64,000 bases of DNA from a bacterium (GTDB lineage Bacteria; UBP6; UBA1177), in the NCBI GenBank assembly GCA_017645765.1, contig JAGCNV010000026.1:62001-126000 (forward strand). The letters are read 5' to 3'. This document shows, in pieces, positions 21,213-45,674 of this stretch. Both the position numbers and the translations under genes were made by a program. Each line of letters begins with the position of its first letter. The first letter of the stretch is position 1. A model generated the notes under the pieces. The model worked only from the letters and a program-made list of their open reading frames with translations, did not search any database and was not told the origin of the DNA.

Positions 21213-21218
21213 AGTTTA

Positions 21219-21242
21219 AGACGTGTCAGGTCACGTCTCTAC
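21219..21242 (+). repeat. Palindromic GTAGAGAC-type repeat, copy 1
   Basis: AGACGTG and CACGTCT arms flank TCAGGT, and CTAC follows. It belongs to the same family as 26106-26132. Confidence 0.7.
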
Positions 21243-21275
21243 GGTTAGCGGTGCTGACAATAACACTATAAACTC

Positions 21276-26105: not shown

Positions 26106-26132
26106 TGAGACGTTTCAGGAAACGTCTCTACA
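26106..26132. repeat. Palindromic GTAGAGAC-type repeat, copy 2 (possible terminator)
   Basis: A 27-bp near-perfect palindrome: TGAGACGTTTC and AAACGTCTCTACA around AGG. It lies in the 38-bp gap between convergent tsaD and pilR, so it could stop transcription from either side, although no long T-run follows. Confidence 0.75.
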
Positions 26133-44972: not shown

Positions 44973-45674
44973 ATGAAAAAAGTTCTTGTTATCGTTACTG
45001 TAATCGTAATAATCGCGCTTTTTGCAGCTTACAAATGCAGCAGAAGCCGTGGCGCAGAGGATGTAGAGATCTCCCCTGAAACGTCTCAGCCTGCACCTGT
45101 AGAGACATCCCCCGAGACGTCTCAAACTGAGCAGAATGAAGAGCCTTCAGAAGAAGTAAAGGAAGAACCTGTACAGGAAGAGCCCGCTGCAACTCCCGCA
45201 AAAGAGCCGAAAAAAGAAGGCAGAAAGGCTAAAACTGCTGCTGAAAAGGCTGAAAAAGTTGAAAAAACTGAAAAAGAAGCTCCGAAAGCTGCTCCGGCTG
45301 AAAAGAAACTTCTGTCCAGAGAGGAAAAGGCGGCTCCTGACAGACCAATGCCCGAGGTGAAACGTGCTCCGAATGAAGCAAACATCGATTCCGCAGGTGT
45401 TACGAAAGTTATCAACGTAAGCCGCGCCGCCATCAAAAGATGTTATGACAAAGCTTTGATATCCAATCCGCAGCTTAAAGGAAAAATGTCTATAAAAATA
45501 GTGATCAATAAGGATGGAAGAGTTGACAAAACTGAAATAGTCGATGACACGCTCCGTGATGCCGAAGTTGCAAAGTGTGTTAAAGGCGTTATCGGCAGAC
45601 TTCGTTTCCCGAAACCGGCAGATGGCACTGCTACAGTTACTTTCCCGTTCGCATTCGATCCGAAAAATCAATAA
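44973..45674 (+). CDS. AgmX/PglI C-terminal-domain protein
   Basis: One membrane helix (about residues 4-20), then a long Glu/Lys/Pro/Ala-rich linker (25-120), then a C-terminal domain (about 135-230) of the AgmX/PglI type: VTKVINVSRAAIKRCYDKAL, KGKMSIKIVINKDGRVDKTEIV, CVKGVIGRLRFPKPADGTATVTFPF. The two cysteines (CYDKAL and KCVKG) are family-conserved. The fold resembles a TonB C terminus, so a bridging role across the periplasm is plausible; in Myxococcus AgmX is linked to gliding. In the linker, the amino acids PETSQPAPVETSPETSQ are encoded by two copies of an intergenic palindrome. Confidence 0.82.
   Translation: MKKVLVIVTVIVIIALFAAYKCSRSRGAEDVEISPETSQPAPVETSPETSQTEQNEEPSEEVKEEPVQEEPAATPAKEPKKEGRKAKTAAEKAEKVEKTEKEAPKAAPAEKKLLSREEKAAPDRPMPEVKRAPNEANIDSAGVTKVINVSRAAIKRCYDKALISNPQLKGKMSIKIVINKDGRVDKTEIVDDTLRDAEVAKCVKGVIGRLRFPKPADGTATVTFPFAFDPKNQ
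45062..45124 (+). repeat. Two in-frame copies of the GTAGAGAC-type palindrome inside a coding sequence
   Basis: 45062-45088 and 45098-45124 are both 27 bp, begin TGTAGAGA and end ACGTCTCA. Each aligns end to end with the reverse complement of 26106-26132, with about five differences. CCTGAAACGTCTCA in the first copy is an exact 14-base match. The 36-bp period corresponds to 12 codons. Confidence 0.7.

Follow-up and report, generated by a model that had tools for sequence, protein, structure and literature searches.

The window analysed here is a stretch of DNA of 64,000 nt from a genome of 2.65 Mb (G000); the genomes compared carry G-numbers, and 15 of them, G000 included, belong to the same uncultured genus. 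At 44973..45674 on the forward strand the window contains an AgmX-like gene whose 233-aa product has a membrane helix at the N-terminus, a P/E/K-rich linker and, at the C-terminus, an AgmX/PglI domain (NCBIfam NF033768, E = 1.1e-26, residues 139–228). Two 27-bp copies of a repeat lie in frame within this ORF, as an earlier note on the same DNA had reported. Copy 1 at 45062..45088 (forward strand) encodes VEISPETSQ, copy 2 at 45098..45124 (forward strand) encodes VETSPETSQ, and the two together give VEISPETSQ-PAP-VETSPETSQ.

The earlier note had matched both copies end to end with an intergenic palindrome at 26106..26132 (reverse strand), located between genes that it calls tsaD and pilR. The coordinates proved right and the match holds with 4–5 mismatches: copy 1 agrees with the reverse complement of the palindrome, TGTAGAGACGTTTCCTGAAACGTCTCA, at 23/27 bases and copy 2 at 22/27, while the copies agree with each other at 23/27; the exact run of 14 bases that had been reported, CCTGAAACGTCTCA, is common to the reverse complement and copy 1. 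A third member, placed by the note at 21219–21242, is better delimited as 21217..21243 (reverse strand); it matches at 22/27 bases and is a different stem variant, G-C (GTAGAGACGTGACCTGACACGTCTT), the palindrome at 26106..26132 having the T-A variant (GTAGAGACGTTTCCTGAAACGTCTC). Read in the sense register, the G-C variant would have an in-frame TGA. In 100 second-order Markov shuffled versions of the window the top match was 16–20/27 and never reached 21. Chance as the source of the resemblance was rejected, both on the shuffles (no more than 20/27) and on the presence of identical 25-mers in unrelated genes. An Rfam scan of the window gave no match at gathering thresholds.

The palindrome at 26106..26132 has a predicted hairpin energy of −8.5 kcal/mol (z −4.7); the values for copies 1 and 2 are −0.6 and −2.7 kcal/mol. 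The orthologous copies of the window pair in G006 are near-perfect, with a hairpin of −7.3 kcal/mol. Copy 1 is near-perfect in most congeners and its left arm is decayed in comparison with sister species; the window copies are already decaying in G000 and have lost much of the hairpin. The intergenic palindrome at 26106..26132 is present at the same site in G006 and is missing there from G005 and G014. At the orthologous site, G005 (contig 27) and G014 (contig 35) have other palindromic-looking DNA (e.g. CTCGGTATCCCGATATCGCGGGAT).

The REP family of the genus

The 27-mer belongs to a family of GTAG-tagged REPs with the consensus GTA-GAGACGT-X-[A/T]CCTGA-X'-ACGTCTC, in which X pairs with X'. 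The palindrome is 25–27 bp long and the GTAG tag stands unpaired at one end, the last G of the tag being the first base of the arm. Copies were searched for with the pattern GTAGAGACGTNNCCTGANACGTCTC, allowing up to three mismatches, against a reversed control pattern. The matches listed numbered 62 in G000, 63 in G006 and 88 in G003 (some symmetric copies were found on both strands and counted twice) versus none for the control in each genome; the 27-mer is thus commoner in G000 than chance would have it. The symmetric core was found 67 times in G000 versus 3 times for the control and, with up to one mismatch, it was present in all 15 genomes of the genus (4–64 copies each) and in none of 26 genomes outside the genus. 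Covariation in the stem is pronounced: X and X' form a Watson–Crick pair in 163 of 188 distinct copies, the shuffled mean being 62.5 and the maximum 81. The subtypes are X = T, G, A and C, along with a CATG-centred one, and REPs often form inverted pairs spaced at ∼50 bp. At one orthologous intergenic site (contig 34:193741 of G000 versus contig 1 of G006; loci L241 and L232) a G-type REP in G000 stands opposite a T-type REP in G006, as if the copy had been exchanged or the stem altered on both sides.

The 25-base pattern was also found in Cyanobacteria, Bacteroidales, Anaerolineae, Acidobacteria and others. Copies in other phyla were not counted as members of the same family; most of them are symmetric, with other cores (GTTGCATGCAAC and similar) and TAC after the stem. 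A RAYT-like match was present at only four of the pattern loci in other phyla. Palindromes ending GTAGAGACG...CGTCTCTAC, with other cores and mostly perfect symmetry, were seen in Cyanobacteria, Bacteroidales, Acidobacteria, Anaerolineae and others (L046–L162). Since proteins encoded near REP-pattern matches in 'Bacterium isolate RGIG10122' from yak rumen are 77–93% identical to proteins of the genus, the genus is probably a gut lineage.

When 29 genomes were searched with Pfam PF01797, 14 of the 15 that belong to the genus yielded no Y1 transposase. The conclusion that RAYT is absent from the genus was rejected, the PF01797 result being a false negative according to a profile made from Y1 transposases of relatives and to direct protein search, by which RAYT-like ORFs were found. 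The protein search detected RAYT-like genes in 9 of the 15 genomes and gave no RAYT match in G001, G002, G004, G010, G011 and G012, some of these six being incomplete. REPs adjoin 11 of the 12 RAYT-like loci examined, at ten of them on both sides; the lone locus with no adjoining REP is a partial gene in G009. NCBIfam REP_Tyr_transpos was the best family for all five tested ORFs (E from 3.8e-7 to 6.9e-14), and three of the five were above the Pfam Y1_Tnp cut-off. We call these genes RAYT-like, not RAYT, because they score 30–52 bits, under the NCBIfam NF047646 cut-off of 80 bits; the match is split around a REP-encoded insert. An HUH motif, MPNHIHLI, and a C-terminal Tyr within EYIENN are recognizable from the sequence of the ORFs, and the position of NP(L/V)(R/K)xG near the Tyr is occupied by NNV(R/K)(K/R)W, a partial match.

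The subtype of the flanking REPs is uniform at each RAYT-like locus except in G013, where related cores are mixed. In the transposase tree a G-type clade has support 83 and a CATG-type clade support 98; T-type transposases, with identity of 0.80–0.98 among themselves and 0.76–0.82 to the G-type, form no clean clade. The comparison suggests that the transposase clade tends to match the REP subtype. No X = C transposase locus was found among the 12 RAYT-like loci examined. The distribution of REPs and RAYT-like genes supports a RAYT–REP system and would be consistent with its mobility.

Between their HUH motif and Tyr region, RAYT-like genes (L405, L406, L407, L409, L410, L416 and L424) themselves contain segments encoded by REPs, GDVSGHVST or ETFHETSL. 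The subtype of these segments is that of the flanking REPs and some are partial repeats; several of the internal copies read in antisense frame 1 (GDVSGHVST). In G000 the RAYT-like gene is in two pieces, split by an IS110-family transposase ORF of 395 aa (L204:2064–4136, contig 79), and this ORF sits near the internal REP of the gene. Because the G000 gene is split and the six genomes above have no RAYT match, the REP family may now be mostly immobile in the genus.

REP copies inside genes

A copy was called coding in G000, G006 and G003 if an in-frame ORF contained it and gave coding signal both before and after it. The count by context proposed in the earlier note, made here in three congeneric genomes, gave 72 coding copies (38%), 113 intergenic copies (60%) and 3 copies at gene 3′-ends among the 188. 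The number of coding copies is probably low, since the strict call misses RAYT-internal copies and a copy in a reverse transcriptase gene. The registers are strongly biased. We observed 57 of the 72 copies in sense frame 0 (VETxPETS), 14 in antisense frame 0 (ETxQxTSL) and a single one in antisense frame 1; antisense frame 2 was used by none of the 72 gene-internal copies, yet this frame is open in 148 of 188. Sense-coding copies have only X = T or X = C because the usual X = A and X = G forms give TAA or TGA in the sense register. The forms with X = A or G make up 0/57 sense-coding versus 58/113 intergenic copies (Fisher p = 6e-14; orthology and tandem duplication make the coding copies interdependent and raise their counts, and the p-values here and below are indicative). 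The X = C subtype (VETSPETS) accounts for 28/57 sense-coding versus 4/113 intergenic copies.

In G000 the host genes encode a SPOR-domain protein (four copies), FtsY (three), the AgmX-like protein, a TonB-dependent receptor, an M23 peptidase, an MmeI-like protein and an HlyD-like protein (two each), a reverse transcriptase (one) and several unnamed proteins. Where Pfam domains were found in the hosts, the REP copies were outside the domains or at their edge.

Copy 1 of the AgmX-like gene is at the same place in 8 of the 10 congeneric orthologues (G000 counted), that is, in seven other species, and copy 2 is also present in the orthologues of G006 and G001, followed there by the same TEQ as in the window. 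G005 and G014 have neither copy; other DNA at the site reads VETTPAT or AETTPAT. The alignment of orthologues, from which the earlier note expected relatives free of the repeat to lack the segment, gave the palindrome in eight of the ten and did not reveal a pre-insertion state, the two repeat-free species being (weakly) nested in the genus. We rejected this gene as an empty-site case, as the FtsY tree does not put G005 and G014 first. Since these species do not clearly branch first, the AgmX-like gene did not reveal the insertion event itself, which is probably old.

One could suppose that linkers rich in P, E, T and S merely happen to encode VETxPETS and that the likeness of the DNA is accidental. 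The host linkers are indeed rich in E, P, T and S, and the site in G005 and G014 reads similarly with other codons. However, coding copies in several genes fit the family at 25/25 positions, some of them being identical to intergenic copies, and the antisense reading ETxQxTSL occurs too. Codon identity in the AgmX-like repeat is 86% of same-amino-acid pairs versus 63% outside the repeat (9-codon windows at least as conserved as the repeat make up 5% of the alignment), and the FtsY copy VQTFPETSQ has identical DNA across six species over 27 bases versus 76% codon identity elsewhere. Convergence is refuted in general by identical 25-mers in unrelated genes and, for the diverged copies of the window, by the near-perfect orthologous copies in sister species; we give it almost no credence.

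FtsY is a universally conserved, core component of protein targeting. Its gene has 1–4 copies of the repeat in 12 of 13 congeners; the exception is G004, and seven FtsY from the same family and order but from other genera have no copy either. Distant orthologues that keep the same peptide with unrelated DNA, a possibility that the earlier note had raised against its own claim, were not found. FtsY of G010 has four copies with a period of exactly 69 bp, while its sister G004 has none. Spread within genes is in part a matter of tandem duplication together with flanking linker, not of fresh insertion.

An MmeI-like protein offers another view of the insertions. Its segment before the methylase motif has 68 aa when REP-free (G012, G005 and G014), 69 aa with a single palindrome (G008 and contig 55 of G000) and 88 aa with a REP pair (contig 48 of G000, G002, G006 and G007). 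These genes are the nearest thing to empty and filled sites, although they are paralogous and their flanks differ. The linker before DPACGSGNFL in this protein (L431–L460) holds a REP pair, AREPRALRQK-coding, RHSERSVESQR-coding and other short repeats, varying by species; judged by such contents, it appears to be a hot spot of insertion in a coding region.

The 69-bp array in G010, the difference in copy number among neighbouring species and the concentration of X = C in sense-coding copies, with no X = C transposase locus found, would all agree with an old coding subtype that multiplies mainly by tandem duplication and by recombination, inside linkers and from one linker to another, new insertions being few. 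We regard this as a serious possibility that falls somewhat short of an even chance. On the other side, coding T-type copies in several genes are identical to intergenic and transposase-flanking ones, and the MmeI-like genes hold REP pairs in which the partner is of the A- or G-type; these findings argue for insertion out of the pool of REPs.

The raised codon identity inside repeats might also mean that the hairpins of coding copies are maintained because they act at the DNA or mRNA level, the peptide being incidental. A synonymous Glu codon tracks the pairing partner: GAG is used in 1/29 copies at X = T and 17/28 at X = C (p = 2e-6 pooled; by genome p = 0.001 in G006, 0.01 in G003 and 0.14 in G000). 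The pooled copies, however, share descent and the C-G pair may be inherited as a unit; in addition, 11 X = C copies are without the pair, the gene has survived the loss of the hairpin from the window copies, and codon identity is also explained by recent origin or gene conversion. We consider selection on the hairpin unlikely. It is also rather improbable, in our estimate, that the X = C subtype has been domesticated as a coding module, with no known transposase, an occurrence almost only in genes, multiplication in linkers and a hairpin kept by synonymous compensation, both peptide and hairpin being selected. If true, the peptide could be, for instance, a spacer in the linker or a site of modification, with the hairpin acting as an mRNA structure.

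With high confidence we favour the reading that GTAG REPs were moved by a RAYT-like transposase, kept in frame in linkers in a harmless register and then tandem-duplicated. The form moved by the transposase would be a single-stranded REP hairpin, a mechanism already proposed for other RAYT systems. An insertion into a gene would survive if it was in frame, if it fell in a disordered P/E/S/T-rich linker, whose tolerance may act as a filter, and if its register was harmless. The GTAG strand would be harmless when read as VETxPETS, the one sense register that usually lacks stops, and the other strand when read as ETxQxTSL. Tandem duplication of linker copies together with the flanking linker would be the later amplifier. 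The claim of the earlier note, that genes can acquire the repeat and gain peptide from it, is supported more widely than it was made, with FtsY and MmeI-like hosts and 72 of 188 copies in coding sequence.

Relation to known palindromic elements

GTAG REPs have been described as palindromes of 20–40 bp that have GTAG at one of their ends, show compensatory variation in the stem, form inverted dimers and are accompanied by cognate RAYT genes (Di Nocera et al. 2013, PMC3733652). The family in the genus is alike in tag, palindrome, stem variants, inverted pairs and RAYT-like genes. The same paper described REPs inside ORFs, with dimers encoding 20–30 aa, and suggested flexible linkers as tolerant sites. 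Here, the coding share is 38%, FtsY is a host throughout the genus and one subtype is nearly coding-only; the sequence of this family and the single-register rule are not given in the parts of that paper drawn upon here. Of the 1,067 REP 16-mers that are most abundant in Pseudomonas fluorescens SBW25, no more than 14 overlap a gene (Bertels and Rainey 2011, PMC3116915). The REPINs of that strain are similar in their inverted REP pairs and their link to RAYT; with 72 of 188 copies coding, the intergenic majority is far smaller in the genus studied here.

RAYTs are known to have an HUH motif, a C-terminal Tyr region and inverted flanking REPs, with REP variants tracking the transposase (Nunvar et al. 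2010, PMC2817692). The ORFs of the genus share these features and differ by internal REP-encoded segments and by scores below the NCBIfam cut-off. Rickettsia palindromic elements (RPE), according to the summary in PMC3733652, are inserted in frame into ORFs whose protein products are probably functional; RPE-4 and RPE-6 among them are of the CGTC class, with which no transposase is associated. The in-frame insertion of a palindrome is common to both cases; as far as that summary goes, the genus differs by the GTAG tag and the linked RAYT-like gene. PARCELs are palindromic coding DNA spreading between genes, with tandem arrays and a 25-residue amphipathic motif (Roske et al. 2010, PMC2996958). 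The repeat of the genus is likewise a coding palindrome, but it encodes nine hydrophilic residues, VETxPETSx, and is mostly dispersed.

That REPs occur inside genes is already known (Di Nocera et al. 2013), with a precedent in Rickettsia RPE. What is new here, in comparison with the open PMC literature, is the large number and share of coding copies, their use of a single register and a subtype that occurs almost only in coding sequence.

The idea that tiny mobile palindromes make new protein segments is a long-standing one. The present genus, which has many sequenced species as well as RAYT-like genes, makes it countable: each insertion, register, duplication and loss can be traced from gene to gene, FtsY included. 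REPs were named for being extragenic; in the three genomes sampled, more than one-third of the copies are in coding sequence, nearly all of them in one register per strand. The rule is a simple one: stop codons within the hairpin decide which REP subtypes can enter genes and in which direction.
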